Made by a program: the position numbers and the translations under genes
Notes under the pieces: model-generated
What the model was told of the DNA's origin: nothing
Seen by the model: the letters and a program-made list of their open reading frames with translations, nothing else
The model's database searches: none
DNA from: Myxococcota bacterium
GTDB lineage: Bacteria > Myxococcota_A > UBA9042 > DTJE01
Assembly (NCBI GenBank): GCA_017994695.1
Contig: JAGOKF010000001.1
Coordinates: 1 to 64,000, forward strand
Direction of reading: 5' to 3'
DNA: 64,000 bases
In this document: positions 6,952-32,352 of the stretch, piece after piece
Layout: the number at the start of each line of letters is the position of its first letter
Position numbering within the stretch: position 1 is the first letter of the stretch

Positions 6952-6954
6952 GAT

Positions 6955-9122: not shown

Positions 9123-9128
9123 CTGTCG

Positions 9129-13188: not shown

Positions 13189-14781
13189 ATGCACCACTTG
13201 TTTCCAAGGCCTCGTCGCGCTCTGTGGACATTGCTGGTGGCATGCCTTGCGGTGAAAGGCCCTGCGGCCGCCGCCGAGGGGCCACTGGCCCGACTGGCGG
13301 CACGGCTGGAGGTGGACAGGCAGCGGGCGGACCACGTGCTGGTCGTGGACATGTCCGGGTCCATGCAGTGGGAGGCGAGACCGGGATCTCGCCGGAAGGC
13401 GTCCCCGGGGGCACGGCGCATGGACGTGCTGCTGGAAGCCTTGCCGGCCCTGCTGGAAGGCATCGCTCCGGGAGACCACGTCGTGGTGGTCGGCTTTCAC
13501 GAAACGCTGGTCGAGGATCCCGCCCTCGTTGTGGACCGATGGGATGGTGAGGAATCCCTTCGGCACCTGCTGTCGGCCCTCCGGTCCCGCATCCGCTTCG
13601 GGCCGGCCACGGATCTCGGTCTGGCCTTGGAAGCGGCGATGAAGCATGTCGCACGCCCGGACGGGAATCCCATTCAGTTCGTCTATTTCCTGACCGACGG
13701 CGAGCATGATGCTCCGCATGGTTCCCCCTATCGAGATCCGGATTCTCCGGCCTGGAGCCGATCTGCCTCGATCTGGGAAGGGCTCTTCCGTTCCGAGGAC
13801 CGCTTGTTGGGGGTCTATCTTTTTGGACTGTTCGATGTCCGGGACTCGGGACCCTTGGCTCGCGTTCTTCCTCGCCTGAATTTTCTCACATTCCGGAGCG
13901 GGGCTGACTTCCGTTCCTACCTGGCCACCCTCACGGGCGACGCCCTGCGCCATCGGGTTGCGATGGCATCCCGGCGGGAGGCCGCGAAAGCCGACTGGAC
14001 CGCCTCGATCTCCGAGGAACCCGTTCCGCTGGCTGGAGACGGAACGGCCGAGGTGGAGTTGGCGCTGGAGGTCACGATTCCCCACCTGGACTTCTCGGGA
14101 CGCCTGGAGGTCGCGGAGGCCTCGGCCGTGTTCCCGGAAGGAGGCGAGATCCGAATCCCCGCGACCGCATGGGACTTCACCGACGGCTTCGGAAAGACCC
14201 GGACCCTCACCGTCGCCGTGAGGGGACCTGCCCGGACCACCGACTGGTGGTCATTCGGGCGTTGCCATGAGACGACGCTGAACCTGGACCTTTCCTGGTC
14301 GGCCCTCGGGTGGGAGCCACGCGGGGACTTCGAATCAACCGGATTGGCCGATGTGCGTCCGTTTCACCTGACTGGACGGAAGGCCTCGGCGACGATCCGG
14401 CACTGCACCCGGGGACTGCTGTGGGTTCCGATCCTGATCGCTGCGCTGCTGTTGTCATCGGGAGTCCTGCTGTTCCTGCGCTACCGTCCCAGGACGCTGA
14501 ATGTCTCGGTTTCCGGTGGGCCCCGGTACCGCGGCACGGCCCGGAAGGTGACCGTGGGATCCGCCCCGTCTTGCACCCTGGTGGTTCCCGGATTCCCGCC
14601 TCGGGCCTTCCAGATCCTCCGGGAGCGGGCGGGCCTGGGAAGTCGCTTTCGCCTGAAGGTGGAAGCCTCCGGCTGCAAGGTGAACGGACGACCGGTATCG
14701 CAAGGTCTGGAACTGGACGCAAGCCCCAGCCAGACCCTGGAGGCCGGAGACAAGGTGGTGCGCTTGAGCATCGAGATGTAG
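13189..14781 (+). CDS. Membrane-anchored vWA-domain protein with a C-terminal FHA-like domain
   Basis: 530 aa from ATG 13189. A Sec-type signal peptide (residues 1-30) is followed by a von Willebrand A domain with an intact MIDAS, DMSGS (D54, S56, S58), and later FLTDGEHD. A beta-rich region follows, then a transmembrane helix at about 407-428. The cytoplasmic tail of about 100 residues (VTVGS, VNGRPV, AGDKVVRL) has the pattern of an FHA fold. The vWA part is therefore predicted outside the membrane and the FHA-like part inside. It is the first gene of the operon, ending 7 bp before the tubulin-like gene. It may link an outside binding event to inside phospho-signalling; that is inference. 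Confidence 0.85.
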   Translation: MHHLFPRPRRALWTLLVACLAVKGPAAAAEGPLARLAARLEVDRQRADHVLVVDMSGSMQWEARPGSRRKASPGARRMDVLLEALPALLEGIAPGDHVVVVGFHETLVEDPALVVDRWDGEESLRHLLSALRSRIRFGPATDLGLALEAAMKHVARPDGNPIQFVYFLTDGEHDAPHGSPYRDPDSPAWSRSASIWEGLFRSEDRLLGVYLFGLFDVRDSGPLARVLPRLNFLTFRSGADFRSYLATLTGDALRHRVAMASRREAAKADWTASISEEPVPLAGDGTAEVELALEVTIPHLDFSGRLEVAEASAVFPEGGEIRIPATAWDFTDGFGKTRTLTVAVRGPARTTDWWSFGRCHETTLNLDLSWSALGWEPRGDFESTGLADVRPFHLTGRKASATIRHCTRGLLWVPILIAALLLSSGVLLFLRYRPRTLNVSVSGGPRYRGTARKVTVGSAPSCTLVVPGFPPRAFQILRERAGLGSRFRLKVEASGCKVNGRPVSQGLELDASPSQTLEAGDKVVRLSIEM

Positions 14782-14788
14782 GGAGCAG

Positions 14789-17700
14789 ATGATGATGGCC
14801 GACAACAGCACATGGGATACCGCATCTAGAGCCGGAGCCCTCGATCGAGACAGGGTGCCCACCCTTGTCATCGGACTGGGGGGGGCCGGGGGACAGATCG
14901 TGGCACGGGTCAAGCGGCTCGTCCGGCAGGTCTACGGGGATCGCCCCCAAATCTCGCGCCTGGTGAACTACCTGGTGGTGGATGCCGACAAGTTTGAGAA
15001 CCTCGACGCCCTGACCCGAAGGGTGATTCTTCCCAGATCTCCGGAGGAGGGTGGCGAGTTCCTGTCCCTCGCGGGATTCAACCCCCGGCAGAGATACGAC
15101 GCCTATCTGGGGCTTCCGGGAAAATCCGAGGATCTCAAAGCGTGGTTCCCGGAGGAGGACCGGGAACTTCTCCCGAACCAGCGCATCGACAACGGAGCGG
15201 CCCGGTGTCGTCCGCTGGGGCGATTCCTGCTGTACTCGAGCCCCATCGAGTCGGTGCTGTCCCGAAAGATCGCTGAAGCCTTCGAGCAGAGAGACACCAA
15301 CGTCTACGTGGAGAACCGCCAGTTGCGTGTCCTTCTGTTCTGCAGCAGTTGCGGAGGGACCGGCAGCAGTTGTCTGGTGGACGTGTTGTTCATTCTGCAC
15401 CGGCTGGTGCAGAGACAGCGGCACGTCGCACCCGTTGTAGATCTCTTCGCCCTGGGACCGGAGCCCTTCGTGAAAGCCAACACGGAGGTGTCGATCGCCC
15501 TGGAGCCCTATCTTCGAGCCAACAGTTTCGCCTTCTTCCGGGAGATCGACTTCCTGCTCAAGCATCCCGACCGTTTCAACGAGATCGCGATGGATGCCTT
15601 GTCGGCGGGTCGCAGCCAGGGGGGAGTGGAATCGCTGACCGGCCTGCCCCCCGATCAAAGACCTCCTCTGGACAATATCTACGTGTTCGACGGCAGCGTC
15701 CCGGCAGGCGTGGGCGATTTCCAGGACCTGAGCGCCCTCTACGACTATGTGGCTCGTGCATCCTTCTACGCGAAGTTCGTCCCTGAAGTGCGAGCACGCC
15801 TGGACAGTCTGGCGTCGAACGTTGAGCGGTTCAAGGGACTGGACAAACAGCGCGAGAGACGGAAGAGTTTTGCCGCCCTGGGTGTGGCCGAGGTCTGCAC
15901 CGGCGACGACTTCACCCTGCGCTATCTCCAGTTGCGATCCGCTCGCGACGGCCTGCTCCGGGGCCTGGTGGGAGACAGTTATCCGGATTTCGACTCGGCC
16001 ACCCGGGAAGTATGTTCCCGCCTGCAGGCCGACATCGATGCGGCATGTACGACACTGATCGAAGAGATTCGCAGGGCTGGCGACCAGGGCCTCGAACTGC
16101 TGATGAACCACGACCAGTTCCGGGTCAACGAAAAGGTGAAGTGGGATCTGGTCCGGAAGGCAGACGAGTCTTTGCGAGGGGCAGAACGAGACCTGATGAG
16201 GTCCGTGGACGCGGCCCTGATGGCCCAGGACACGCTGCTGCACCAGAAAGGCTCGGCCGTCCGAAGCGCCTTCCAGGCCCAGTTGGACGCGCTGTGCGCG
16301 ACCCTCTGTGATGGACAGGGAGTGATCTTCCTGGAGCGAGTGCTGACCGAACTGAACAAGCGCCTGGAGCGGGACATCGAGGTCGAGGTCGGAGCCATGA
16401 ACTCTTCCCAGGAAGCAGCGGATGGAATCCTGGAGGCGCTTCCCCAGGGGAAGGGGGATATCGGCAGCCTGGTGACCCATCTGATCGACCGCAAGGATGA
16501 ACGATTGCTGTTCCAGTTCCTGGACGACCTGATCGCGTACCGCAAACATGCCGTGGCGGTCAACCTGCACCGATTGAAGGCGGAACTGCTGCGGAGACTG
16601 GCCGGAGACGTCGGGAGGGACGCAACTCCGATGGAGTACAACGAGGGGATTCGCCGCTACCAGGTCGGTGTGACGTCGGTACGCAGCCCGCTGGACAGCC
16701 GCATCGAGGAACTGGCTTCCCTGAGGCTGCACCTGACGAATCTGGCCGGGAGTTCCAGCCCTTACGAGGTCTTCCGAGAGGAGCGCCGCGTGGCCCAGAC
16801 CTCCCCCACGATGCACATCTTGACGATGGAGAACCAGGAAAGCCTCGACCGGGAGTTCGCTGCGCTCTTTCCAGAATGGGCCCATCCGAACGATCGCGAT
16901 CGCCAGAAGGCTCGGGCCGAGCGCAACAAGGAAATCCTCCGGACCATCGCAGGGGCGCTGGATCGGCCAGAGATCGGCCCCGTGGATTTGAAAGCGATGG
17001 GACAGGAGACCTGGACATACGCCATCGAAGAGTACGTGACCCGGTGCTTTCACGAGCAGAAACGGCCGTCCATCGCCGATCGAATGAGGGATTCTGGGGA
17101 GGCCGGAGAGTTCCAGAAGATGCTTTGGCGAAACAGTGAGCCTGGAGTACGGATCCAGTATGAGGCCATGGTCGACCGCGGGGACATCGATGAAATCGTC
17201 CGGTCCGTCTTCATTGGCAGCCCCGGCGCGACCCTGGATGCCTTCGCTCAGGAAGGTGGCTCCTCGGGAAACTCCTACACCTTCCCCTGCCCCGATGATC
17301 GTTGGGTCTATCTGCGGGCCCGTGCTGTTCTCCCGATTTGGGTGTTCTCATCGATCGAGGCCCAGTCGGTCTACTATCACACCCGCGAGGTTGGAAACCG
17401 CCCACACATCGACCACCGGTTCAACCGAGGCCTCCTGGAGGAATGGGACCCATCGAACCAGGGTTCGGTCCCGGATGCGACCGAGGTCTTCTTCTCGCTC
17501 TATGCTGTGAGCCTGTTGCTGGGACCAGACTGGAAGACCCTCATTCCAGAGGAGGACCATGACCGGCGGGATCAGTTGGTGAATGACTTCCGACGGGTTG
17601 CATGGTTCGATTCCATGACCTGCATGCGCCACAACCTTCCACCTCTATTCCTGTACCAGGTCTTGTCGGGTCCGCCGGAGGCGCAGGGCGTTTACGGAAT

Positions 17701-18181
17701 TCCCTGGGAACTGGCATGGAGGGAAGGAAGGGGAGTCCTCCACGTTCAGGGGAGGGCCCCTCGACCTCTACGGATCCTGCCTCTGCCCATGAGCCGGCTG
17801 CAAGACAGGCAGCAGGTGCTGGACCAGTACCGGTCCCAGCAGGGTCTGTACCGGATTCACGCCCGCTTCCTGATCGAGATCCTCCACGGCCACCCGGCAG
17901 GGCGGACGCTGTTGGAGTTTGCAGCAGAGTCCCTGGAGAGATTCTGCCTGAAGCAACTGGAGACACTTCGTGGCACTCCGCTTTACGGAATCGCGAGAAA
18001 CCTCTCTGCCGCGCTGCGCAGCACAGAACAGAGGCGCATCCTGGCAGACGAGGCCTTCTATGAAAAGGCATCGTTGGAACTTTCCAGGATCCAGAAGCGC
18101 CTTTCCAGTGATCTCGAATCCTTGTCAGGACCCGACTCGGCCCTGGAGGATTCTTCGGCGAGGAGCGCTCAGGTCTTCTGA
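14789..18181 (+). CDS. Bacterial tubulin-like protein (Tubulin_2/FtsZ-like)
   Basis: 1130 aa; three consecutive ATGs at 14789-14797 make the exact start uncertain. The first 200 residues have the FtsZ/tubulin nucleotide-binding pattern: VIGLGGAGGQI (27-37), VVDADKFEN (63-71) and the glycine signature CGGTGSS (188-194). The rest is much longer than FtsZ, largely helical and unfamiliar. It fits the Tubulin_2 family, whose members occur beside vWA proteins. An FtsZ-like family in such neighbourhoods was proposed to act in membrane remodelling (Makarova and Koonin, 2010). I expect GTP binding and perhaps filament formation; hydrolysis cannot be judged, as no clear T7 catalytic motif was identified. 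Confidence 0.85.
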   Translation: MMMADNSTWDTASRAGALDRDRVPTLVIGLGGAGGQIVARVKRLVRQVYGDRPQISRLVNYLVVDADKFENLDALTRRVILPRSPEEGGEFLSLAGFNPRQRYDAYLGLPGKSEDLKAWFPEEDRELLPNQRIDNGAARCRPLGRFLLYSSPIESVLSRKIAEAFEQRDTNVYVENRQLRVLLFCSSCGGTGSSCLVDVLFILHRLVQRQRHVAPVVDLFALGPEPFVKANTEVSIALEPYLRANSFAFFREIDFLLKHPDRFNEIAMDALSAGRSQGGVESLTGLPPDQRPPLDNIYVFDGSVPAGVGDFQDLSALYDYVARASFYAKFVPEVRARLDSLASNVERFKGLDKQRERRKSFAALGVAEVCTGDDFTLRYLQLRSARDGLLRGLVGDSYPDFDSATREVCSRLQADIDAACTTLIEEIRRAGDQGLELLMNHDQFRVNEKVKWDLVRKADESLRGAERDLMRSVDAALMAQDTLLHQKGSAVRSAFQAQLDALCATLCDGQGVIFLERVLTELNKRLERDIEVEVGAMNSSQEAADGILEALPQGKGDIGSLVTHLIDRKDERLLFQFLDDLIAYRKHAVAVNLHRLKAELLRRLAGDVGRDATPMEYNEGIRRYQVGVTSVRSPLDSRIEELASLRLHLTNLAGSSSPYEVFREERRVAQTSPTMHILTMENQESLDREFAALFPEWAHPNDRDRQKARAERNKEILRTIAGALDRPEIGPVDLKAMGQETWTYAIEEYVTRCFHEQKRPSIADRMRDSGEAGEFQKMLWRNSEPGVRIQYEAMVDRGDIDEIVRSVFIGSPGATLDAFAQEGGSSGNSYTFPCPDDRWVYLRARAVLPIWVFSSIEAQSVYYHTREVGNRPHIDHRFNRGLLEEWDPSNQGSVPDATEVFFSLYAVSLLLGPDWKTLIPEEDHDRRDQLVNDFRRVAWFDSMTCMRHNLPPLFLYQVLSGPPEAQGVYGIPWELAWREGRGVLHVQGRAPRPLRILPLPMSRLQDRQQVLDQYRSQQGLYRIHARFLIEILHGHPAGRTLLEFAAESLERFCLKQLETLRGTPLYGIARNLSAALRSTEQRRILADEAFYEKASLELSRIQKRLSSDLESLSGPDSALEDSSARSAQVF

Positions 18182-18202
18182 ACCTGAGGGGTGGGGAGAA
18201 AC

Positions 18203-20788
18203 GTGAGCCTGAGGCCCAGTTATATCGTTTGGATGCGACCCCGTGGAGAGGGGGAAGCGATTGCGTGGCTCCCTCCTCCCGAGGTTGTTCTGCGCCGCTG
18301 GGCGAGGCAGGCGGACCCGACGGCTCCCTGGGTGCGCTTCGTCGTGCCAACCGAGGAGACCAAGGCCCGCCTGGGAAAAGACCTCCTGGCCTTGCTCCAG
18401 GATGCCCCTGCAACTCCCCGGAGGGAGGTTGGCGTTGCATGCCTGCTGGTCTTCGACGGAATCGAGGCCGGTCCGGGCTTCCTGGAGCGGTGCACACAGC
18501 AGGCGCAACAGTGGCTGGCCGCACTTCAGGACGTGTCCGCACGGGCAGGCACCGGAGTCTTTCAGAACCTCACCGTGGACTTGTGGATGCGCCTGCCGCT
18601 CCTCTCTGGAGCCCTGCCGAATCGCGGTCTGCAGGAACAGTGGCTGAGAGAGATGCGACAGGCGCTGATGGTGATACCTGGCAGCCTGGCCTCGGTTCGG
18701 CGGATCTGGTGGACGGCCGCGTCGAACGTCGATCCGGAAGGGCACCCGGAGGGACGGAACCTTGCCAGGGTCGAGGACTACGATGCGGTGCTGGCGGAGG
18801 GGATTGTGCTCTGGCTCCAGGCAGACCTGGAGCCGGAACTCGCCGTGGGACAGGCTCCGGTTGGTCCATCGAGCACGCCCCATGCCAGCCTCGGCTGCGC
18901 GCGGCTGGTCTTCGAGTCTCGGCGCCTCCGGGAGGAACGAAGTCAGCGATTTGCCCGGGAGTTCCTCCCGGGCGTGGCGGACGCTCACTCCGGAATGCGA
19001 AGAATCCCCGCCACCGATTCCGAGCGCTTTGTCTCGGAAGATCTCCCTCTGGCGGAGGGAATGCGGGGCCTGAAGGTCGAGACCACCCTGAACCTCCTTC
19101 GTCGGCCGAGCCTGCTCAACGAAGCCTTCCCGGGCTCGGTCCAACTTCAGGACCTGAAAGGGTTGATCCGAAAAGTGCGGCCTCCCGTGGAGGCGGACCT
19201 CGAGGAGCGACCCTTCGAAACTGCAGGCAACACGGTCCCTGCCCGGGTGATGGAGCGAGCGTATCGTCTGCTGGCGGACGACCTCTTCGCGGTGGTCCGC
19301 GAGGTCCGACAGGCTCGTCACCGGCTGTTTGAACAGGCCGTTCGGGAGCTTGAAGGGGAGATCGCCCGGCGTCTCGAAGACGGGTCGGTCTCCTACCTGG
19401 CACAACTGGACCAGGCGCTGTGGGACCGGCGCGCCTGGATGGAACGGGAACGGGGACGGGTCGAAGACGTGGCCCGGGAAGCCTTCGCGGAGGAGCAGCC
19501 GGCCCCGGAAACGCCAACAGGGTGGTGGGGTCGGCTGAAAGAGCTCTTTTCCCGGCCAGAGGGGCGTTTCGGACTGGTGCCCGAGGAAGAACCGAACCCA
19601 GTGACCTATCACGACCGTCTGGTGGCTCTGTTGAAAGTCCGACCGCTACCGGAAGCATGGATCACCAGGACGTTCCTGGCGGCAATCCCGGTGGGCATGG
19701 CCCTGTCACTGGCAACCCGGTGGATTGCCCCAGAGGTCGCGAGCCTGCCGTTCCTGGGTTCGCCGCTGACGGGCATGGCGGTGGTCCTGGCGGCCTGGAC
19801 CGGCCTGTCACTGAAGCGTCTGGCGACGCTGAGACGGAAGCGGCAGCGGGCCCTGGAGGCACTGTATATCGCACTGGAACGCCACGGGCGGATCCTGATT
19901 CGCAACCATCTCATCCGCAGCCTGAAGCGCCTCTACCAGGACGTCGCCGCCACGCTGGCCCTCCCAAGAAATCCGGAGGTGTCAGCCGAGGCCCTGGCGG
20001 GGATCCGGGAATCGCTGACGGAGTGTCGTCCCTGGTCGGAGGGACTGCGCCGCGCACTGACCCTGAAGGACGATCCGGAAGCGACGGAACCCGGGTTCGT
20101 GCCCCTGGCGGAAAGGCTCCAGTCGTTGATCAACGCGGTCAAGGAATCGGCGGAACGCATCGGTGCCGACCTTCCGGGAGAAGCCTTCGTCCCGGGTCCG
20201 GTGGTCGACTCGCTGGTGAACGCCGAGGATGCGGCCTCTTTCCCGTTCCTGACGAAGGCCGCCCCCGCAGCCATCGAGCCGGCAGACCAGCCTTCCCGGG
20301 AAGAGATGCTCCGGTTGTGGATGCAATCGGGCATTGCCCGGAAGGCATGGGAAGATCTGGCCACGAACCGGAAGACTGCCGTTGATGCCCTGGCGGAAAG
20401 CACGCGGTCCTGGGCCTTCGAAACAGGTTTTCGCTACCTGGAAGATACGGACCTGGAGCGCATCGTAGCGTTTCTGGTACGGCACCGCGGGGCCACGGTG
20501 GATCGCTGGCGATCCTTCCTGGAGCGTGGAGCCTTCCCCTTCTGCCCGCTGGGGGAGAACGGGCGGCTCCTACCCCTGAGGCGGCTGCATCTGACATGGC
20601 CCGGAAGTGTTGGCGACCAGTTGGGGGTCGTCCTGCAGGCCTACCCAAAAGTGTTGCCTCCCCAGTGGGGCGGAGCGCCGTCCATCGTCGCGACTTGCCT
20701 CCAGGGGCCGGGAGGAGACGCCTCGCTGCCAGCACTGCCGCTGGATTTCCCGTCGCCGGGAAGCGAGGACAGCGGAGTGGTACTGTAG
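18203..20788 (+). CDS. Unrecognised large protein with a central transmembrane pair
   Basis: 861 aa from GTG 18203, with GGGGAG 4-5 nt upstream; an in-frame GTG at 18191 lacks a site. I do not recognise the family. Residues 1-250 are mixed alpha/beta. A helical region follows, with many Arg/Glu residues. Two hydrophobic helices lie near residues 487-540 (FLAAIPVGMALSLATRW and GMAVVLAAWTGLSL), followed by a long basic coiled-coil-like helix and a helical C-terminus. Its position directly after the tubulin-like gene suggests a membrane adaptor or regulator for the filament. It could equally be a scaffold for the kinase and phosphatase. Confidence 0.7.
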   Translation: MSLRPSYIVWMRPRGEGEAIAWLPPPEVVLRRWARQADPTAPWVRFVVPTEETKARLGKDLLALLQDAPATPRREVGVACLLVFDGIEAGPGFLERCTQQAQQWLAALQDVSARAGTGVFQNLTVDLWMRLPLLSGALPNRGLQEQWLREMRQALMVIPGSLASVRRIWWTAASNVDPEGHPEGRNLARVEDYDAVLAEGIVLWLQADLEPELAVGQAPVGPSSTPHASLGCARLVFESRRLREERSQRFAREFLPGVADAHSGMRRIPATDSERFVSEDLPLAEGMRGLKVETTLNLLRRPSLLNEAFPGSVQLQDLKGLIRKVRPPVEADLEERPFETAGNTVPARVMERAYRLLADDLFAVVREVRQARHRLFEQAVRELEGEIARRLEDGSVSYLAQLDQALWDRRAWMERERGRVEDVAREAFAEEQPAPETPTGWWGRLKELFSRPEGRFGLVPEEEPNPVTYHDRLVALLKVRPLPEAWITRTFLAAIPVGMALSLATRWIAPEVASLPFLGSPLTGMAVVLAAWTGLSLKRLATLRRKRQRALEALYIALERHGRILIRNHLIRSLKRLYQDVAATLALPRNPEVSAEALAGIRESLTECRPWSEGLRRALTLKDDPEATEPGFVPLAERLQSLINAVKESAERIGADLPGEAFVPGPVVDSLVNAEDAASFPFLTKAAPAAIEPADQPSREEMLRLWMQSGIARKAWEDLATNRKTAVDALAESTRSWAFETGFRYLEDTDLERIVAFLVRHRGATVDRWRSFLERGAFPFCPLGENGRLLPLRRLHLTWPGSVGDQLGVVLQAYPKVLPPQWGGAPSIVATCLQGPGGDASLPALPLDFPSPGSEDSGVVL

Positions 20789-20812
20789 GCAGATTGGGGG
20801 GAGCGGACGGCG

Positions 20813-22288
20813 ATGACGGATGGAAGCGAGGCGACGCGAACCGGATTCCAGCCCCCCTTGGGGACGGCCGGGTCGATCCCGAGCGCGGGTGAAGCCACAC
20901 TGGCTGAAGTCCCCGTTCCGGAAGTCCCTGGGCCCGTTCCCGGGGCAGATGCGGCCCCTTCGATCGTCCCAGGGGCCGATCCCGCCCCATCGGCAGCCGT
21001 CGGCGGGTTGCCACCGGAAACTGGCACCCCGCCCTCGGTAGAAGGCGGGGTTCCCATGCCGCCAGCAATGGTTCCTTCCCCCGAGAAATCCTCCTCTTCC
21101 CCACCCTCCGGCCCCACCGCCGTGGCGCCCGCGGCGGGGATCTTCCTGGTGTTGTTCTGCGCTCTCTGGCCGGTGCATGACGTTCTAGCGACGCGGATCG
21201 CGATCCCCGCCCTCGGAAGTCCCTGGTCGTTCCTGCTGCAGATGACTGGGCTGTTCCTGGTGATCTGGGGAGCCCTGGAACTGGTGCTTCGTCACGAGGA
21301 GGACCTGACATTCCTGGAGGGCGGCCGATTCCGCGGCTTCCTCCGCCGGGTGAACCGGACCACCGGCCAGGAGAAGCGGGGCCCGATCCTGACCGTCCTG
21401 TGCGCTATCGCCACAGTGGTGGCCATGATCCAAGGTGCCTGGAGGCTGGTGCCCCTGGGTGCGGTGCCTGCCTTCGCTCTGTTCTGGCAGGCGGCGAGAA
21501 CCCCGAAGGAGCGCTGGGCGGTTCTTCCCTTCGTTCGGAACCTGCCTGCCAGCCTCCCCAGCCTGCCTGTCCCAGGGCCCGGCGAGGAGGGGGATGTTCG
21601 GGTGGACCTGACCTGGGAGTTCCCACGGATTTCCTTGTCGGACGCTTCCGTCGTCTGCGGCGAGGGCAGGGCCAGGCTCGTGATCCGAAGCGAGGACATC
21701 ATGCGGGCGCGGGAGTCGAATCCCACCCGTGGACCCGTCGCGACACTGCTGGCCGAGGAGTCCACCCGCCACGCGATGATCCGGGAACTGGCCTGCAATG
21801 GCCCGTCGACCGAGATTCCGCGTCTGGCAGGGATTGTCGGTTCCCTGTCGGCGGCCGGGAGGTTCTTTCTGCACGAGGAACTGGCTTGCCTGCTGGGGCT
21901 CGTGCAATCCATTCCGCTGCGCTCCGACGAGGAGTCCCTGGCCCGCACGGATTACTGGCGCTATCCCGTCGAGACCCTGGCAGACCGTGCAGGGGACAGC
22001 ATCGACCGGGCCCTGCTGCTGGCCGCCCTGATGCACCATCTGTACGGCGAGCCGGCCGAACCGGCACGACGCATGACGCTGCTGTTCCTGGTGGACTGGG
22101 CAAACCGCCGGGGGGCCGTCGCCGTCGGCGGTGCCACGCTGGCACTTCCGGAAGAGAGCTTTTCCCACCCGGCCCGACCGGGTGAACGATTGTACTTCTG
22201 CGACCCCGAAGACGGGGGAAAGATCGGGGGGATCCCGACAGGAACCTCTGTGGAGTGTTTCGAGATCGTGTCGTTGTGGCCGTCCTAG
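20813..22288 (+). CDS. Membrane protein with a degenerate transglutaminase-like C-terminal domain
   Basis: 491 aa. A Pro/Ala/Gly-rich N-terminal tail of about 100 residues is followed by three hydrophobic segments (near 103-120, 140-160 and 195-225) and then a cytosolic-looking domain. In that domain RYPVETLADRAGDSIDRALLLAAL matches, over its length, the ETL...GDCxDxAxLLAALL core of bacterial transglutaminase-like peptidases, but with Ser where the catalytic Cys should be. A late YFCDPEDGG resembles the family's Asp strand, and no His is found in between. It therefore looks like an inactive relative, perhaps a binding domain. The family assignment is moderate. It belongs to the operon, with gaps of 24 and 20 bp to its neighbours. 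Confidence 0.65.
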   Translation: MTDGSEATRTGFQPPLGTAGSIPSAGEATLAEVPVPEVPGPVPGADAAPSIVPGADPAPSAAVGGLPPETGTPPSVEGGVPMPPAMVPSPEKSSSSPPSGPTAVAPAAGIFLVLFCALWPVHDVLATRIAIPALGSPWSFLLQMTGLFLVIWGALELVLRHEEDLTFLEGGRFRGFLRRVNRTTGQEKRGPILTVLCAIATVVAMIQGAWRLVPLGAVPAFALFWQAARTPKERWAVLPFVRNLPASLPSLPVPGPGEEGDVRVDLTWEFPRISLSDASVVCGEGRARLVIRSEDIMRARESNPTRGPVATLLAEESTRHAMIRELACNGPSTEIPRLAGIVGSLSAAGRFFLHEELACLLGLVQSIPLRSDEESLARTDYWRYPVETLADRAGDSIDRALLLAALMHHLYGEPAEPARRMTLLFLVDWANRRGAVAVGGATLALPEESFSHPARPGERLYFCDPEDGGKIGGIPTGTSVECFEIVSLWPS

Positions 22289-22308
22289 GACAAGTCTGGG
22301 GGATGGGA

Positions 22309-23457
22309 ATGGACCAGGGAAGCCTGTGGAACAAGGTCTACGAGCAGCGGAGTCTGGACGAGCAGCAGCGCATCGGCCAGGAGCGGACGGAGCGGGAAGG
22401 CCGGATCCTGGCCATCGACGGCTGCTACGACCACTGGCAGGAGGTCGTTCCCCACGTCCGGGCGGCGGTGAAGGATCTGGTCCAGCCTCTGAAGGATCTG
22501 AAGGATCTCCCCAGGCCCCTCGGCGACTACCACCTGGTCGCGCTGGGATGCCCGGGAGAAGAAAACGCCCCGGCTGTTCTGGACGCGCTCCTTCAGTACC
22601 TGGAAGGTGGCGGTTGCGTGCTGACCACCGATTGGTGCCTGGGAAAGGTGCTGACCCACGAGCGAGAGACAAACCGGTCCCGGGAGTGGCTTGGATCGGC
22701 CGTGGTCACCACCCCCGAGACGACGGGAAGCGCCTTCACGGTGGATTACCGGAAGACGGCGCCCGATCATCCGTTGTTGCGAGGGCTGCCTTCCCGGGGC
22801 CGCTGGATCATCACTGGCTGGTCCCACATTGTCCAGGTGATCGACCGGAACCGAGTCCGGGTTTTGCTGGAATCGGCAGAACTGGCGCGGAGTCATGGCC
22901 ACGGAACCCTGCTCTTCGAGACCCAGGTGGGCAGGGGACTGCTGGTGCACTTCATCTCCCACGCCTATGCCCAAGAGGGCGAGGAACAGGACATGACGGC
23001 CGCGATGATGCTGTTGGCGAACCTGTTCGACATCGCCACCGCCCGGGCGGCAGGATCGGCCGCGGTGACCCCTGTTGCGTCGGGCGGGCGGTGGATGCGG
23101 CTCCGAGGGCCGTCCTCTGCCCTGACGGTGACCTTGAAAGCCGATGACACGGAGGCGGATCTGCGGTTGACTCGCGACAAGGCCAGGCGTCTGCTGGCAG
23201 ATCTGGCAGACGAGGACGGCAATCCGTTCTACAAGTACATCCACCCGGACGTACCTCTGGCCGAATTCCGACATGCTCCGGGAGAGGGATGGTCGGTCCG
23301 GGTTCCCGAAGGCAGCGCCAATGGGCTGTTGCTGGACGGGGACCGGGTCGGTACGGGCTGGACCGCCCTGAGGTCGGGGCAGCGGCTGGTCCTGTTCGGC
23401 ACCAGGCGGGGCCGTGCCGTGGAGGACCTGTCCCTTGGGGTGGAGATTCCGGAATGA
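22309..23457 (+). CDS. Glutamine-amidotransferase-fold (ThuA-like) protein with a C-terminal FHA-like module
   Basis: 382 aa from ATG 22309, with GGGGG upstream; an in-frame ATG at 22303 is too close to it. The first 250 residues have a class I glutamine-amidotransferase-like Rossmann pattern: YHLVALGCPGEE, then LQYLEGGGCVLTTDW, HPLLRGL and a late GRGLLVHFISHAY. This resembles ThuA-like or transmembrane GATase1-like proteins that lack amidotransferase activity. Residues 265-382 are a module shared with three other proteins of this operon (DEDGNPFYKY, then NGLLLDG, then GRAVEDLSL). Its stop overlaps the phosphatase start as ATGA, so the two are probably translated together. Confidence 0.7.
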   Translation: MDQGSLWNKVYEQRSLDEQQRIGQERTEREGRILAIDGCYDHWQEVVPHVRAAVKDLVQPLKDLKDLPRPLGDYHLVALGCPGEENAPAVLDALLQYLEGGGCVLTTDWCLGKVLTHERETNRSREWLGSAVVTTPETTGSAFTVDYRKTAPDHPLLRGLPSRGRWIITGWSHIVQVIDRNRVRVLLESAELARSHGHGTLLFETQVGRGLLVHFISHAYAQEGEEQDMTAAMMLLANLFDIATARAAGSAAVTPVASGGRWMRLRGPSSALTVTLKADDTEADLRLTRDKARRLLADLADEDGNPFYKYIHPDVPLAEFRHAPGEGWSVRVPEGSANGLLLDGDRVGTGWTALRSGQRLVLFGTRRGRAVEDLSLGVEIPE

Positions 23458-25040
23458 GCGCGTACCGGGGCGACGACAGAAGCCTCCCGCTGCCTGAACG
23501 GATCCGGCGGATCCTTGAGGAGACGGGGAGGACCGTGGATACGGAAACGGATCTCCGGGATCGCATGGCGGCGATTCTGGGCCTGCTGCAGACTCGGTCC
23601 GAATCGCCCGGAAGCGGGGATTCCCGGCAGCGGGTGCTGCCCCTGGAGCCGGGACACCTGTATGCCGTGGTCGGCGACCTCCACGGGGACTTCGCGGCCT
23701 TCGACGACATCCTGCGGTCCTTCTTCCCCAGGGACCTGACCGAGGAGGAGGCAGCCCGCCGGCATGTCCTCCTGCTGGGGGACATCCTGGACCGGGGCCG
23801 GCGGGACCTGCAGTTGCTTCATGCCCTGCTGGCCCTGAGGGAGGTGCTGGGAGAGCGCCTGATCCTGATGCGAGGCAACCATGAACACTGGGTAGCGGAC
23901 GAGGAAGGAGCCCTCCGAACCACCGCGGAGGGGGGCCAGGAATTGCTGCTGAACTACCTCCGAGGCAAGGTACCCGACGGGAATCTGCTGGCCCTGCACC
24001 GGTTCTTCGAGGGCATGCCCCACGTCCTGCTGTTGACCCACCCGGCAGGTGGGGCCTTGCTGGTCCATGCGGGAGTGCCCCCCGAGTTCCTGGTCCGGAA
24101 ATACCTCTCGAATCTTCTCGCCTCGACCGCCAGCCCCGAAGAACTGCTCCAGGCCGCCCTGCAGGTCGAGAACATCCGGAGCGCCTTCCTGTGGGGACGG
24201 GGCCCGTTGGAAGGTGTCCCGCGCCCGGATCGTCCCTACCCGTATCGGCGCTTCTACCCCGAGGACGTGGAGTCGTTCCTGGGAGTCCTGGGGGCACGGG
24301 TGCTTCTTCGGGGACACGACACCGAGAACCGGGGATACGGTGTGCAGATGGCCGGACGGTGCATCACCGTGTCGTCCTCGGGGACGGCCCTGGCAGGCCG
24401 AAACCCCGATAGCTACTTCGATCACACGGTGCAGATGCCTCGATACCTGGTGCTGGACGGGGACCGGTTCGGTCTTGGCCAGCGGGGTTCAGGAGAGTAC
24501 GAGCACCTGGACGCCGGAATCGCGGTCCGAGAGGTCTTCGGCCGGGATGTCGTCGTCCTGGTGGACGAGGAGTCGCAGGGTCCGGGGCAGGAGTCCGAGG
24601 CCATGACCCTGGCCCGCAAGATCCACCAGGCGCTCCCGTTGGCTTCCGACGTTCCCATTCACCTCTACCAGCGCCGCCTGTACTCGGTCGATGCGGCAGA
24701 GTTCCTGGTCCTGCTGGAACCACGCATCGCACGCTTCGACCGGGAACTGGATCGGTCTTTCCATGCAAGGTACACGTTCCACCTGTCCCGGGAGGAGGGG
24801 CGATTCCGATTGCGACGCTGGCGCGGACCATGGATGCCTGACAGGGAAGAGGAGGACTGCCGCGAAGAGGACAGCCGGGACGATTTCGTCCGGAAGTGTG
24901 CCGCGTTCCTGGTCCGGATCCTGGACCTGCCGGTGGCGAAGCCCGGAGTGGGTTCCTCGACCGTGGCAGAGGGTTCGGCGGCCGATCCAGAGACGGGGAT
25001 TCCGGCAACGCCTGGCGGAATGGAGGAGGAGGGACCATGA
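23454..25040 (+). CDS. PPP-family Ser/Thr protein phosphatase
   Basis: 528 aa from ATG 23454 (ATGA overlap with the previous gene). All metallophosphoesterase motifs of the PPP family are present: GDLHG (74-78), GDILDRG (109-115), RGNHE (140-144), LLVHAG and RGHD. These bind two metals for phosphoester hydrolysis. The C-terminal third is an unfamiliar extension. It sits immediately before a Ser/Thr kinase and overlaps it as ATGA, so the two probably form an opposing pair acting on partners in this operon. Related kinase-phosphatase-vWA triads, such as TerY-P, use a PP2C-type phosphatase; here it is PPP. Confidence 0.9.
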   Translation: MSAYRGDDRSLPLPERIRRILEETGRTVDTETDLRDRMAAILGLLQTRSESPGSGDSRQRVLPLEPGHLYAVVGDLHGDFAAFDDILRSFFPRDLTEEEAARRHVLLLGDILDRGRRDLQLLHALLALREVLGERLILMRGNHEHWVADEEGALRTTAEGGQELLLNYLRGKVPDGNLLALHRFFEGMPHVLLLTHPAGGALLVHAGVPPEFLVRKYLSNLLASTASPEELLQAALQVENIRSAFLWGRGPLEGVPRPDRPYPYRRFYPEDVESFLGVLGARVLLRGHDTENRGYGVQMAGRCITVSSSGTALAGRNPDSYFDHTVQMPRYLVLDGDRFGLGQRGSGEYEHLDAGIAVREVFGRDVVVLVDEESQGPGQESEAMTLARKIHQALPLASDVPIHLYQRRLYSVDAAEFLVLLEPRIARFDRELDRSFHARYTFHLSREEGRFRLRRWRGPWMPDREEEDCREEDSRDDFVRKCAAFLVRILDLPVAKPGVGSSTVAEGSAADPETGIPATPGGMEEEGP

Positions 25041-26482
25041 GCATCGGGAGGATCCACGGCTATGATCTGGAACAGGTCCTGAAGGCCGACATGAGCCTGG
25101 TGTTTCGTGCCTCGAAAGGAGGGGAACCTCGGTTCCTGAAGGTCTATCGCCTGAGAAAAGAGGACCCCGTCAACGCCCGGCGAATGCATGAGGCGCAGGA
25201 GGCCCTGCGGGGACCCCTGAGGGACCTGGGAAACATCACCGAAGACATCCTGGAGCACGGCGTCATCCCCCTCTCGGCCGCCGCGGTCGGGGACTACGGC
25301 GCGGGAGCCGATTTGCAGTTCCAACCCGAGGCCTACTACCAGGTGAAGCCTTGGCTGAAGTGCATCAACGTGGCCGACTACCTGGGCCAGGTGCGGACCC
25401 GCCTCGGGACGCTGTTCCGGGACTGGGGGAGCGAGGCGGCCCGAACCGAAACGGTCGAGCACCTGGAGAGGATGCGGACGCTCTTCGGAATGCTGGCCGC
25501 CATCCTGAAACGCTGTCATGACCACGGCATCGTCCACCAGGACCTGAAGCCCCAGCAGGTGCTTCTGGTGGAACTCCCCGTGTCCGGGGAGGGGTTCCTG
25601 GGAAAATACCGCCTGATGTTCGCGGACTTCGATGCGGCCTTCCTAGCATCGACCGGCCCGATCCACCGGGTCACAACGCTGCGGTACGAGAGTTTCGAGC
25701 ACGTCACCGGTGGTCGACTTGGGCCCTGGTCGGACGTCTTCACGATGGGACGCATGATCGGGGAGGCTCTGGGCCTGGGCGCGCCGCTGCTCTGGACCTC
25801 GGAGGAGGAAGGCTCGGGGCTGACGGAGGTCGACCAGGCCCGGTACGTGAAGCGCGCCCGCTACTGCCTCTCGTTCCAGGACTACTATGCCCGCCAGTTC
25901 GAACCGGTCCCGGTGGACCGGGAGGGGCTCAAGCGACTGGATGGCCTCCTGGCTCGCTGTTTCCAGGAGGATCCATCCTCCCGCCCCTCCGCCGGGGAAC
26001 TGGCCCGGGAATTGATGGGCCTTCGGCTGTTCCAGACTTCCCGGGAGCCCGTTCCACCACCCTCCCCGCCACCGCCACCTCCTCCCGCAACGCCCCCGAC
26101 GACGGGCAGACTTCGGGAACCTTGGTTCCGGCTTCGAGCGGACGAGCGACAGGCATACACCGTGAAGGCGGGCCAAACCATTCTGGATCGCCGGTCCGCC
26201 AAGGCCCAGTTCCCGGACTTGGCGGACGATGACGGGAACGAGTTCTACCGGTACCTCCCCGATGCCCCCGCCCTCGAGTTCCGCCTGGTGGAGGGCGAGG
26301 GTTGGGAGGTTCGGGTACCCCCGACCATGCCCAACGGGTTCCACCTGCGGCGCGGAGGGGCGCCAGAGATGCCGTTGACGGAGGCCTGGGTCCCCCTGGA
26401 GGTCGGGGACGAACTGGCCCTCTACTCGAGGAAACAGGGGCGGGTGGTGCCGCACCTGTCGCTGAAGGTGTCGGTTTCCTGA
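25037..26482 (+). CDS. Ser/Thr protein kinase with a C-terminal FHA-like module
   Basis: 481 aa from ATG 25037, preceded by GGAGGAGGAGGGACC. The kinase domain (about 1-340) has the ATP Lys in FLKVYR (K35), the catalytic loop HQDLKPQQ (167-174, D169 and K171) and DFD at 197-199 in place of DFG. HRD is HQD, so it is a non-RD kinase, and the loop Asn is Gln174. These changes suggest low or unusual activity, not clear inactivity. A Pro-rich linker leads to the shared FHA-like module (about 362-481: DDDGNEFYRY, NGFHLRRG, GRVVPHLSL). The partner phosphatase precedes it. Confidence 0.85.
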   Translation: MSIGRIHGYDLEQVLKADMSLVFRASKGGEPRFLKVYRLRKEDPVNARRMHEAQEALRGPLRDLGNITEDILEHGVIPLSAAAVGDYGAGADLQFQPEAYYQVKPWLKCINVADYLGQVRTRLGTLFRDWGSEAARTETVEHLERMRTLFGMLAAILKRCHDHGIVHQDLKPQQVLLVELPVSGEGFLGKYRLMFADFDAAFLASTGPIHRVTTLRYESFEHVTGGRLGPWSDVFTMGRMIGEALGLGAPLLWTSEEEGSGLTEVDQARYVKRARYCLSFQDYYARQFEPVPVDREGLKRLDGLLARCFQEDPSSRPSAGELARELMGLRLFQTSREPVPPPSPPPPPPPATPPTTGRLREPWFRLRADERQAYTVKAGQTILDRRSAKAQFPDLADDDGNEFYRYLPDAPALEFRLVEGEGWEVRVPPTMPNGFHLRRGGAPEMPLTEAWVPLEVGDELALYSRKQGRVVPHLSLKVSVS

Positions 26483-26487
26483 AAGCC

Positions 26488-26505
26488 GTCCCGCAGAGGC
26501 GGGAC
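26488..26505 (+). other. Perfect stem-loop in the kinase-vWA gap
   Basis: GTCCCGC and GCGGGAC pair perfectly around the 4-nt loop AGAG. It lies 5 nt after the kinase stop, in the only sizeable gap (57 bp) within the operon. No T-run follows, so it is not a standard terminator. It may stabilise or partly separate the upstream and downstream halves of the mRNA. Confidence 0.5.
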
Positions 26506-26539
26506 ACAATGGCGGTTCCAACACGAACAGGAGGTCGAG

Positions 26540-27250
26540 ATGCCGGATCTGCAGGTCAGCAAAATCAAGGGCGTGGCGGACATCGTCTTCTGCCTGGATG
26601 TCACGGGCTCCATGCAGCCGTGCATTGACGGGCTGAAAAGAAACGTCCACCGGCTGGTAGAGGCGCTCCAGTCCCCGATGGAGGTGCAGCCCGGAGTGGT
26701 CGCCGCCGTGAAGGACTGGCGGGCCAAGGTCTACGGGTATCGCGACATCGATGCCGATGGCCCCCTGGCCATGATCGAGGACTTCCCGATGGTGCAGACA
26801 GCCGCCGAGTTGCGGAACCAGTTGGAGGACCCGAGGATGCAGGCGGCGGGCGGTGGTGACGAACCCGAGTCGCTGCTGGACGCACTCTACCGGATCGCGA
26901 AGAACACCCCCTGGCGGGGAGAGAAGGAAGCCCACCGATTCGTTGTCGTGTTCACCGACGCGACACCGAAGCCCTCGTTGCACCCGAGCACGGTCGGGGG
27001 GGCAGGACCCACGGACCTGCCGGAGGTACTGCAGGCCCTCAACGCGGCACGGATCAAACCGGTGCTGTACGCCCTGAAAGGGCCTGAAACCGAGACCATT
27101 CAGAACCTCAGGCCCGCCTTGTTGAAAGCCTGCAAACTGTTCACCAGCCGAGAGGAGGCCCTGGCCTTCTTCTCTTCGGAAGTGCAGTTCGCGACCCTGG
27201 TGGATCGGCTGGCGGCCACGGTCACCGCCTCGGCCAGCGAGGTCCTCTGA
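26540..27250 (+). CDS. Cytosolic vWA-domain protein (TerY-like)
   Basis: 236 aa with no signal peptide and no membrane segment. It is essentially a single von Willebrand A domain: VFCLDVTGSM carries a DxTxS form of the MIDAS (D20, T22, S24), with VVVFTDATPK later. Stand-alone vWA proteins encoded next to a kinase and a phosphatase resemble TerY of the TerY-P triad, which act as metal-dependent protein-binding parts. A GGAGG site precedes the start. This is the second vWA protein of the operon; the first is membrane-bound. Confidence 0.85.
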   Translation: MPDLQVSKIKGVADIVFCLDVTGSMQPCIDGLKRNVHRLVEALQSPMEVQPGVVAAVKDWRAKVYGYRDIDADGPLAMIEDFPMVQTAAELRNQLEDPRMQAAGGGDEPESLLDALYRIAKNTPWRGEKEAHRFVVVFTDATPKPSLHPSTVGGAGPTDLPEVLQALNAARIKPVLYALKGPETETIQNLRPALLKACKLFTSREEALAFFSSEVQFATLVDRLAATVTASASEVL

Positions 27251-27261
27251 CGGAGGAAGGC

Positions 27262-27708
27262 GTGAGCCGGATCTGCCAGATCTGCACGATGCTCGTCCCG
27301 CCGGGCAGGAACACCTGCCCGACCTGCGGCGCGTCGTCGCAGAACTTCTCCGCCGCCTTCCTGGAGTTCACGGCCGGAACGGCCCTGTGCCGGGTCCGGG
27401 AGTTCCCTTTCCTGATGACCCGAGACTGGGTCTCCCGACACTTCCGGACTCTCGAGGACGGCGAAGGCAACCCGATCTATCGGTATTTCTATCCGGATCT
27501 TCCGATGGTGCGCGTGCTGCCAGGAGACTCGGGCTACCGCTTCCTTTCGGACGTTCCCGGTGACGACCAGCACAACCATGCCCGGCTGGACGGCCAGCCC
27601 CTGGATCACCGCGGCGTGATTCTTGGCCCACGGGGAGGCCAGCTGGAGATCTGGGCCCGACGCAATCGCACCGCCGTCTGCCGATTCGACATCCGCTTCA
27701 TCGCGTAG
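27262..27708 (+). CDS. Zinc-ribbon protein with an FHA-like module
   Basis: 148 aa from a GTG start at 27262. The N-terminus has two CxxC knuckles (CQIC and CPTC, spaced by about 11 residues), a one-zinc ribbon. Residues 30-148 align by eye with the module shared in this operon (GEGNPIYRYFYPD, then the strand pattern ending LEIWARRN). Here the stretch VSRHF before it also looks like the SxxH of a true FHA domain. Probably an adaptor binding a phosphorylated partner; function is otherwise unknown. Confidence 0.75.
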   Translation: MSRICQICTMLVPPGRNTCPTCGASSQNFSAAFLEFTAGTALCRVREFPFLMTRDWVSRHFRTLEDGEGNPIYRYFYPDLPMVRVLPGDSGYRFLSDVPGDDQHNHARLDGQPLDHRGVILGPRGGQLEIWARRNRTAVCRFDIRFIA

Positions 27709-27717
27709 GAGGCGGCA

Positions 27718-28845
27718 ATGGAGCCCTCCCGAGTCCGGGAACTGGCCCGTCGAATCGTCGGGGCCTGGACCGACCCGATCCTTCGAATCAAGGCCGTACA
27801 TGACTGGATCATCCTGAACACCGCCTATGACGAAACCGTTCTGGAAGGCCGCGACGCTCCCTCGGCCGTGTACCGGGCAGAGGGAGTCCTGGAGCGGCGC
27901 AAGGCCGTCTGCTCGGGGTATGCCCATGCGGTGGAACTGCTGCTGCAGGCTCTGGAAATTCCCGTTCTGTACGTGACCAATGCGAACCACGCCTGGAACA
28001 TGGTGCAGGTCAGGAACGTCTGGTATCACCTGGACGTCACCTGGGACGACCCGATTCCGGACACGCCCGGGCAGGTGCTCTACACCTACTTCCTGCTTTC
28101 CTCGGCCACGCTCGCGATGTCCCGGACCTTCCGGGAGTCCCGGCCAGCGCCGGCGGACTACCTGGCGACGGTCCGGGAATGGGACGGCCGCCCGGTGGTG
28201 CATGCGGTCCAGGAGGCCGAGGCGGCTTTCCGGAGCGTGTCGCCTTCGGTGCGTCCCGTATCGCTGCTGGTGTGGAAGACGGACCCCGAGGAGGTCGTGG
28301 ATCGGGTCCGCCGTGCCTTCGGCAGGGGGATGTTCGGACCGGTGGACCCGCGCATCCGTTGGTCGGTCTGGACATCGGGAACCCCCCTGGGAGAAGTCCG
28401 TTTCGGTGCGACCAGGGAGGAGGTCGAGCGCATCCCGGCCCCGGTCCTTCCACCCCCTGTGGGAGACGGCCTGCCAGTGGCGGGCTGGTTCCGCCTGCGG
28501 GGGCCCGGGATCCAGGATGTCCTGACCGTGCGGATGGACGCCTCCCAGGCTCCCTTTCGGCTGGATCGAACCTCGGCAATGGCCCTGGATGGAATCCGGG
28601 ACGAAGCGGGCCGACCATTCCACCGGTACTTCGAAAAGGGAGGAGATCCCTTGCTGGAGTTCAACATCGCTGGGGGCCGATGGGCCGTTCGGGCGCCGAC
28701 GGGAGCCGTGAACGGTTTCCTGCGCAACGGCTCCCCCGTGGGACCCGAATGGACTCCCATCGCAGTCGGCGACCTCCTGACTCTGGTGAGCCGACGACAG
28801 GGCCGTGCCGTGCCTTCACTGACCCTCAGAGTCAGTGATCGATAG
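27718..28845 (+). CDS. Transglutaminase-like protein with a C-terminal FHA-like module
   Basis: 375 aa. Residues 1-150 form a transglutaminase-core domain with the full catalytic triad: C65 in KAVCSGYA, H91 in NANHAWN and D106 in YHLDVTWDD. Such domains act as peptidases, amidases or crosslinking enzymes. No signal peptide is seen, so it is predicted to be cytosolic. Residues 258-375 are the shared FHA-like module (DEAGRPFHRY, VNGFLRNG, GRAVPSLTL). It is the last gene of the operon and ends 1 bp from the convergent carbamate kinase gene. Together with the upstream Cys-to-Ser membrane relative it makes an active/inactive pair. Confidence 0.85.
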   Translation: MEPSRVRELARRIVGAWTDPILRIKAVHDWIILNTAYDETVLEGRDAPSAVYRAEGVLERRKAVCSGYAHAVELLLQALEIPVLYVTNANHAWNMVQVRNVWYHLDVTWDDPIPDTPGQVLYTYFLLSSATLAMSRTFRESRPAPADYLATVREWDGRPVVHAVQEAEAAFRSVSPSVRPVSLLVWKTDPEEVVDRVRRAFGRGMFGPVDPRIRWSVWTSGTPLGEVRFGATREEVERIPAPVLPPPVGDGLPVAGWFRLRGPGIQDVLTVRMDASQAPFRLDRTSAMALDGIRDEAGRPFHRYFEKGGDPLLEFNIAGGRWAVRAPTGAVNGFLRNGSPVGPEWTPIAVGDLLTLVSRRQGRAVPSLTLRVSDR

Positions 28846-28846
28846 G

Positions 28847-29830
28847 TCAGCAGGCGCCGATGACGTGGGTGCCGCCGCGGCCCTGGAGGGCCGCCTCGAG
28901 GGTCTCGGGATTCGTGATGATGGCCCGCTTGCCGCCACGCTCCAGGAACTCGCAGACGGCCAGGACCTTCGGCCCCATGCTGCCCGCGGGGAACTCCCCC
29001 TGGCGGTAGAGGTCCATCAGGTTCTCGGAGGTGATGGCCGACAGGGCCTCCTGGTCCGGCTTGCCGTAGTGGACGAAGACCTGGGGCACCTCGGTCAGGA
29101 TGATGAAGATGTCGGCCCCGATCTGGTTCGCCAGCAGCGACGACGAGAGGTCCTTGTCGATCACCGCCTCGATGCCCTCGTAGGAGTCGTCGGGCTTCTT
29201 GATGATCGGGATGCCACCGCCGCCGCAGGCGATCACGATGTGCCCCTCGGCGCAGGCCTCCCGGATCATGTGCCGCTGGACCACCTTCAGGGGACGCGGG
29301 GAGGGCACCACCCTCCGCCATCCCCGCCCCGAGTCCTCGACGATGGTCCAGCCCAGCTGGTCCCGGCGCCGCTCGGCCTCCTCCTTCGTCAGGAAGGGCC
29401 CCACGGGCTTGGAAGGGGCCTTGAACGCCGGGTCCTCGGGGTCCACCAGCACCTGGGTCACCACCGTCACCACATAGCGCTTCAGTTGCCGGCGGCGCAG
29501 TTCGTTCAGCATCGCCTGCTGGAGGAAGTAGCCCAGGCTCCCCTCGGTCTGGGCCACCAGCACGTCCATCGGCATCAGGGGCACCGATCCGTCGGAGGTC
29601 TCGTTCAGCAGCAGCAGGTGGCCCACCTGGGGCCCGTTCCCGTGGGTGATCACGATGTTGTAGTCCCGGTCCACCAGGGTCTGGAGCTGCTGGCAGATCC
29701 GGGCGGCGTTGCGCTCCTGCTCGTGGATGGTGCCCTTCTCGCCCCGGAGCATGAAGGCGTGCCCCCCCAGGGCCAGCAGCACGATGGGCTTCTCCTTCTT
29801 CGTCTTCTGCGTGGCGTTCGGTGCCGGCAT
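28847..29830 (-). CDS. arcC: Carbamate kinase
   Basis: 327 aa, the expected family size with a short charged N-terminal addition. It interconverts carbamoyl phosphate plus ADP with carbamate plus ATP. Motifs include LLALGGHAF, ITHGNGPQVG (nucleotide and carbamate region), CGGGGIPII, DKDLSSSLLA and the late GSMGPKV. CAGGAG precedes the ATG. No arginine deiminase or ornithine carbamoyltransferase gene is adjacent, so the carbamoyl phosphate source is unknown. It is divergent from the methyltransferase gene. Confidence 0.95.
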   Translation of the reverse strand: MPAPNATQKTKKEKPIVLLALGGHAFMLRGEKGTIHEQERNAARICQQLQTLVDRDYNIVITHGNGPQVGHLLLLNETSDGSVPLMPMDVLVAQTEGSLGYFLQQAMLNELRRRQLKRYVVTVVTQVLVDPEDPAFKAPSKPVGPFLTKEEAERRRDQLGWTIVEDSGRGWRRVVPSPRPLKVVQRHMIREACAEGHIVIACGGGGIPIIKKPDDSYEGIEAVIDKDLSSSLLANQIGADIFIILTEVPQVFVHYGKPDQEALSAITSENLMDLYRQGEFPAGSMGPKVLAVCEFLERGGKRAIITNPETLEAALQGRGGTHVIGAC

Positions 29831-29931
29831 GGTACCGCTCCTGTCCCAAGTGGATGCCCCCCTTGCCGAACCGGGGGGAGGGGCCGAATATACGGCGGAT
29901 TCCGGAGGGGCGACAAGGCCCGGAGCACGCC

Positions 29932-32350: not shown

Positions 32351-32352
32351 CC

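Follow-up and report, generated by a model that had tools for sequence, protein, structure and literature searches.

The ten co-directional genes g1 to g10 form an operon made of two fused modules, an FtsZl1 membrane core (g1 to g4) and a TerY-P-like phospho-switch (g5 to g10). Four proteins of the second module (g5, g7, g9 and g10) are tied together by a new operon-specific FHA module, which was absent from the original prediction made for this DNA. The operon lies in a window, by which we mean the whole stretch of 64,000 nucleotides of Myxococcota DNA that was analysed. The operon differs from the closest described systems in that it joins two themes, tubulin with vWA and kinase with phosphatase and vWA, and has a PPP phosphatase and a shared FHA domain. 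Its location, a hypervariable slot shared with known immune genes, is suggestive of a defence or envelope-stress machine, and we tentatively favour a phospho-regulated, envelope-sensing conflict system (a defence or envelope-attack response) in which FHA enzymes would be recruited to the FtsZl1 membrane core.

Table 1. Features of the ten-gene operon and of the slot that contains it (positions in the window unless another locus is named)
Feature	Position	Strand	Evidence or remark
g1, exported vWA protein	13189..14781	+	signal peptide, vWA, TM 406-424, cytosolic tail; VWA_2 2e-9 (Pfam)
g2, predicted FtsZl1/Tubulin_2 GTPase, 1130 aa	14789..18181	+	PF13809 8e-30 (Pfam)
g3, 865 aa	18191..20788	+	no Pfam match; corresponds in position to the third gene, with 2 TM, of related operons
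g4, membrane pseudo-transglutaminase, 3 TM	20813..22288	+	no catalytic Cys; no Pfam match
g5, putative GATase-like N-terminal domain and C-terminal FHA copy (23080-23457)	22303..23457	+	FHA copy by genome search
g6, PPP-type phosphatase	23454..25040	+	PF00149 Metallophos 7e-12; GDxHG, GDxxDRG and GNHE all present
g7, Ser/Thr kinase and C-terminal FHA copy (26120-26482)	25037..26482	+	PF00069 Pkinase 1e-13
g8, cytosolic TerY-like vWA	26540..27250	+	VWA_4 2e-8; DxTGSM
g9, zinc ribbon and FHA copy (27349-27708)	27262..27708	+	CxxC..CxxC in sequence
g10, cytosolic transglutaminase-like enzyme and C-terminal FHA copy (28468-28845)	27718..28845	+	PF01841 Transglut_core 1e-11
Right edge of variable slot	28846..28847	.	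synteny with sister species G001 starts exactly at 28847
CRISPR array	1-404
Reverse transcriptase fused to archaeo-eukaryotic primase (RVT_1 and AEP-TOTE)	654-3158	+	between array and type III-B genes
Type III-B CRISPR: Csx1-Csx20 CARF-HEPN gene, Cas6, RAMPs, Cmr3, Cas10/Cmr2	3167-12322	-
Mokosh MkoA-like SF1 helicase, genes of no assigned family, canonical vWA-PP2C-kinase TerY-P triad	L247 1778-11088 (contig C92)		PADLOC MkoA 9e-82

Recomputing the open reading frames and their spacing confirmed the predicted series of ten co-directional genes linked by small gaps or overlaps. All ten are on the + strand between 13189 and 28845 of the window, spaced by 7, 9, 24, 14, -4, -4, 57, 11 and 9 bp, the overlaps being of the ATGA type and the largest gap 57 bp. 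Gene starts were set by eye, that of g5 being 22303 or 22309. The window has a GC content of 69%, and GC3 is 0.76-0.84 in the ten operon genes, 0.91-0.96 in the host genes on the right and 0.72-0.84 in the CRISPR genes on the left.

The vWA domain of g1 has an intact MIDAS motif (DxSGS). We detected no FHA domain in the C-terminus of the window protein, and a relative gives PF00498 at E 0.055; the idea that this tail is a copy of the shared FHA domain was rejected (hhalign probability 0.2). The second protein contains the GTP-binding loops T1 (IGLGGAG, about 14870-14890) and T4 (CSSCGGTGSS, 15341-15370), and its AlphaFold model, reliable in roughly the first 400 residues only, matches CetZ2 best in the PDB and then tubulins (probability 1.00). 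By its sequence and model, g2 belongs to the FtsZl1/Tubulin_2 family, and it is the one PF13809 gene of the window genome. The third protein resembles the third gene product of related operons in place, size and TM position, with no significant sequence similarity to it in profile comparisons against the CSMAG and Bacteroidales relatives; the two TM segments are clear in the relatives and below the hydropathy threshold in the window protein. Finally, g4 matches L079 (BLASTP 28% over 309 aa, E 4e-14), and the catalytic Cys of its relatives aligns with an Asp in g4, while in CSMAG g4 the Cys is kept with no obvious His.

In the second module, the GATase fold proposed for g5 found no support in Pfam, NCBIfam or the PDB. 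Relatives of g5 occur in 9 other genomes of the 284 sampled (five at E 2e-7 or better) as stand-alone genes, one of them apparently with an N-terminal FHA-like stretch. Of the phylum's other genomes, 378 were searched for relatives of g6 and 120 have them; the 13 such neighbourhoods checked contain no further g1-g10 homologue save one generic kinase. The kinase motifs of g7 are divergent (HQDLKPQQ, DFD), and its activity is uncertain because DFG is replaced by DFD and the Asn by Gln. In contrast to g4, which has lost its catalytic Cys, g10 keeps the complete Cys/His/Asp set in an alignment to 9crn_A and appears to be an active transglutaminase. The family assignments of the original prediction hold for the vWA domain of g1 and for g2, g4, g6, g7, g8, g9 and g10. 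Those of a GATase domain in g5, an FHA-like tail in g1 and two TM segments in g3 could not be confirmed in the window proteins.

When the window's own genome was searched with g7, the last 120 residues of this protein were matched in g5 at E 1e-17 and in g10 at E 9e-17, and a profile built without g9 retrieved a fourth copy in that protein (E 2e-4). The domain is restricted to these four genes within the whole window genome. Two marginal, stop-interrupted matches were obtained in 378 other genomes of the phylum, and a scan of 84,980 genomes, made with strict patterns and not exhaustive, returned no relative; scans of viral contigs with tubulin or FHA queries gave no matches either. The AlphaFold model of the domain (pLDDT 85) has only FHA domains among its ten best PDB matches (probability 0.77-1.00, TM about 0.5-0.6), with modest Foldseek E-values, the best being 0.0096. 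The domain has a divergent FHA fold. An Asn-Gly pair is kept in the copies of g5, g7 and g10, and one Arg in all four; phosphothreonine binding by these copies is putative.

To follow the core in other genomes, we scanned 84,980 genomes for FtsZl1 with a pattern whose underlying alignment had been supplemented with short artificial peptides of the T4 loop, and obtained at least 80 loci among the matches listed. The tubulin is present in 7 of 36 genomes of the CSMAG class (labelled Actinomycetota), and two genomes of the class start the same gene series as the window. One CSMAG genome carries the vWA-TM, FtsZl1, 2-TM and membrane transglutaminase-like proteins in the window's order, and CSMAG profiles match g1 (3e-15, indicating homology), g2 (1e-28) and g4 (4e-17) of the window in hmmsearch. 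In one genome of this class the core stands alone, since amino-acid metabolism genes come next. Rumen Bacteroidales have the vWA, FtsZl1 and 2-TM genes, and three of their loci also the membrane transglutaminase-like gene; their g4 matches CSMAG g4 at 98% probability and their g3 matches CSMAG g3 at 79%. Homologues of g1 are found at 37 of 107 FtsZl1 loci among the matches listed. Genes g1 to g4 are thus a recurrent core that keeps its order in other lineages, recognized by sequence for g1, g2 and g4 and by position alone for g3. A single fixed ten-gene system, as originally proposed, does not agree with these data, the first four genes recurring alone in two other lineages.

The g5-g10 set is absent from the other FtsZl1 loci (about 107 among the matches listed, many on short contigs), and among the loci sampled the two halves come together in no genome other than this one. 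The full combination, already described as unfamiliar in the original prediction, indeed has no counterpart among these loci. That prediction was to be given up if the tubulin and the kinase half never co-occurred elsewhere, and with 0 of about 107 FtsZl1 loci among the matches listed the result comes close to this. On plasmids, tblastn with the tubulin query gave no match, and with the kinase query only weak matches to Rhizobium and Microvirga kinases. PF13809 was found in none of 11 sampled genomes from other genera of the family.

Most FtsZl1 loci, in cyanobacteria and in other genomes of the phylum, have no obvious immune neighbours. TIR genes occur at 3 of about 100 FtsZl1 loci among the matches listed, as a raw count. 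One Bacteroidales genome has a TPR-TIR gene no more than 10 bp behind its core, with a series of TIR-NTPase-TPR and related genes after it; a second one has TIR and Macro-TIR genes immediately upstream of the core. Such neighbours are at most suggestive of a defence role.

Several of these loci have features of their own. TIR, TIR-NTPase-TPR and WD40-bearing TIR-like genes lie directly downstream of a rumen Bacteroidales FtsZl1 core (L202 10876-20000 and L203 1-16100), and a Bacteroidales third core gene (L202 6584-9577) has an extra weak vWA match at residues 667-771. The CSMAG third core gene (L166 1157-3484, L161 5820-7856) starts with an FtsZ T1-like loop (IGLGEFG, LGLGSFG), suggesting that it may encode, along with two TM helices, another FtsZ-like domain that has degenerated. 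An Acidobacteriota operon (L211 9520-16656) has two PF13809 genes flanking a multi-CxxC zinc protein.

The parallels originally named for the operon, FtsZl1 with vWA neighbourhoods and the TerY-P triad, proved to be the right ones. Makarova and Koonin (2010) described FtsZl1 together with vWA and kinases and predicted a role in membrane remodelling (PMC2875224). As in those operons, the window has a GTPase with a coiled-coil and helical C-terminus, membrane partners, a Ser/Thr kinase (sometimes present in them) and an exported vWA protein encoded next to the GTPase, here g1. Unlike them it has no OmpA gene and none of its ten genes encodes the diverged P-loop GTPase partner, which is frequent and not universal, whereas it adds a PPP phosphatase, a second vWA, a zinc ribbon, a GATase-like protein and a transglutaminase, four of its proteins sharing the FHA domain. 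The pairing of tubulin and kinase is not new in itself, since kinases are already part of the published FtsZl1 operons (PMC2875224). Kaur et al. (2020) described two themes of GTPase-centred conflict systems that do not overlap, one of tubulin with vWA and one of kinase with phosphatase and vWA (PMC7159879). The GAP1-N2 systems of that study resemble the window operon in having a tubulin theme with a vWA-TM protein and a theme with a kinase carrying a zinc ribbon or beta domain, a PP2C phosphatase and a stand-alone vWA, but in the window the two themes are joined in one operon and PPP takes the place of PP2C. Assignment to GAP1-N2 was rejected: Pfam and NCBIfam reveal neither GAP1 nor a TRAFAC GTPase, nor any GTPase other than the tubulin type, among the ten genes. 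In TerY-P (Anantharaman 2012), as outlined in PMC11090510, a TerY-like vWA goes together with a PP2C-like phosphatase and with a kinase that bears a fused zinc ribbon, and the same source, citing Gao 2020, mentions OB-fold versions reported as antiphage systems. PADLOC found no known antiphage system in the ten genes, matching generic kinase models alone.

The right edge of the slot is defined by comparison with G001. The DNA identity is 89% over 28847-32404, with 94.6% right up to the edge and none leftward. The convergent neighbour at 28847, of the amino-acid kinase family, is conserved across the family and 97% identical in G001. The slot of G001 contains a different four-gene FtsZl1 operon (a vWA-like gene with a TM, PF13809, a gene of 846 aa and a 1432-aa membrane protein), which fills 12.6 kb exactly between both flanks, the breakpoints being defined to the single base. 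On the left, the flank of G001 corresponds to contig C92 of the window genome, where synteny stops equally sharply and low-GC3 genes lie beyond the break. Synteny implies that C92 adjoins contig C20 in the same slot, a join that the assembly does not show. If so, the slot would reach at least 43 kb in the window genome and would hold, in order, the helicase and TerY-P genes, the CRISPR array, the RT-primase, Csx1-Csx20, the type III-B effector genes and the ten-gene operon. The type III CRISPR locus said to adjoin the operon was recovered with its array, Csx1-Csx20, Cas6, RAMPs, Cmr3 and Cas10/Cmr2; its type III-B genes lie to the left of the operon and divergent from it, with a similarly low GC3. 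The case for a defence neighbourhood is stronger than originally stated, given the replacement in the G001 slot, the Mokosh-like helicase with TerY-P and the TIR genes next to two related cores. The conserved amino-acid kinase gene of another genus has an OLD/AAA-type ATPase-like gene (L240 477-1877) a few kb away, in low-GC3 DNA.

Beside the observed gene content, shared FHA domain, conserved core, variable slot and immune neighbours, we propose a mechanism for a conflict system. The exported vWA protein g1 and the membrane proteins g3 and g4 would monitor the envelope and hold the FtsZl1 GTPase g2 in place beneath the membrane. A phosphorylation switch would be set by g7 as kinase and g6 as PPP phosphatase, together with the TerY-like vWA g8, and phosphorylated sites of the core would recruit the FHA-bearing g5, g7, g9 and g10. 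The cysteine-type transglutaminase/protease-like g10 would then act where the attack occurs, as a maturation enzyme if its substrate is the core, or as an effector if it modifies proteins of the host or the invader. We infer the trigger and target of the system as well as the phospho-recognition, the recruitment and an assembly driven by GTP; likewise, the filament formation, external cue and transglutaminase role of the original prediction may apply.

Such a conflict system is favoured because FHA is exclusive to four operon genes, the core recurs and the slot is refilled by another FtsZl1 operon in G001; because an MkoA-like helicase and a TerY-P triad lie on the other side of the slot, type III-B CRISPR lies to the left of the operon, and some related cores in rumen Bacteroidales are flanked by TIR genes; and because TerY-P-like antiphage systems are reported, as outlined in PMC11090510, and both themes are filed among conflict systems (PMC7159879). 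Against it, both halves were found together in no sampled genome but this one, TIR genes are rare, most FtsZl1 loci lack immune neighbours, PADLOC gives generic kinase matches only and the kinase is divergent. We rank it, tentatively, above a phospho-regulated membrane-remodelling or envelope-maintenance machine with no defence role, in which the transglutaminase would mature or cross-link envelope proteins. The predicted remodelling function of FtsZl1 operons (PMC2875224), the membrane-bound core and the metabolic genes around the CSMAG core all agree with maintenance, which we nevertheless consider rather unlikely: the absence of PF13809 from the 11 sampled genomes of other genera of the family and the unrelated version at the same site in the sister species are both unusual for a maintenance machine, and the slot is shared with immune genes.

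Ranked below these is chance adjacency, in which a four-gene FtsZl1 operon and a six-gene FHA phospho-switch/transglutaminase operon would be independent systems abutting in a defence island. The g4-g5 gap of just 14 bp, the common direction of all ten genes, the loss of the catalytic Cys in g4 while the second half has an active-looking transglutaminase and the FtsZl1 operons already published with kinases (PMC2875224) make this unlikely, although the core stands alone elsewhere, the halves are together in no other sampled locus, GC3 differs slightly (0.76-0.78 in g1-g4, 0.78-0.84 in g5-g10) and the g1 tail is unrelated by sequence to the shared FHA. It is very improbable that the operon is a canonical TerY-P system with passengers. 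A TerY-like vWA (g8), a kinase, a protein phosphatase and a zinc ribbon do cluster as in the triad outlined in PMC11090510, but the phosphatase is PPP and not PP2C, the kinase ends in an FHA domain instead of a zinc ribbon or OB fold, the zinc ribbon is on a separate FHA protein, and transglutaminase and GATase-like genes are added. Canonical TerY-P identity was therefore rejected for g5-g10 on its defining features (phosphatase and kinase tail), and a true triad is present elsewhere in the same genome.

No described function for FtsZl1, a widespread relative of tubulin, was found in the literature since its discovery in 2010. The operon gives three testable handles, namely a domain that marks proteins working together, a minimal core across distant phyla and a slot in which FtsZl1 operons differ amid immune genes. 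If the conflict system is truly one of defence, a cytoskeletal GTPase joins the hubs of bacterial immunity. A bolder version, which we hold to be more doubtful than chance adjacency, is an immune machine with a tubulin-family GTPase hub under the membrane, an FHA "address tag" recruiting four enzymes and a transglutaminase effector, the FtsZl1 operons being exchangeable alleles at defence slots. Elsewhere in the window, a large protein with metallo-beta-lactamase and lamin-tail domains is encoded at 56224-59583 (+ strand).
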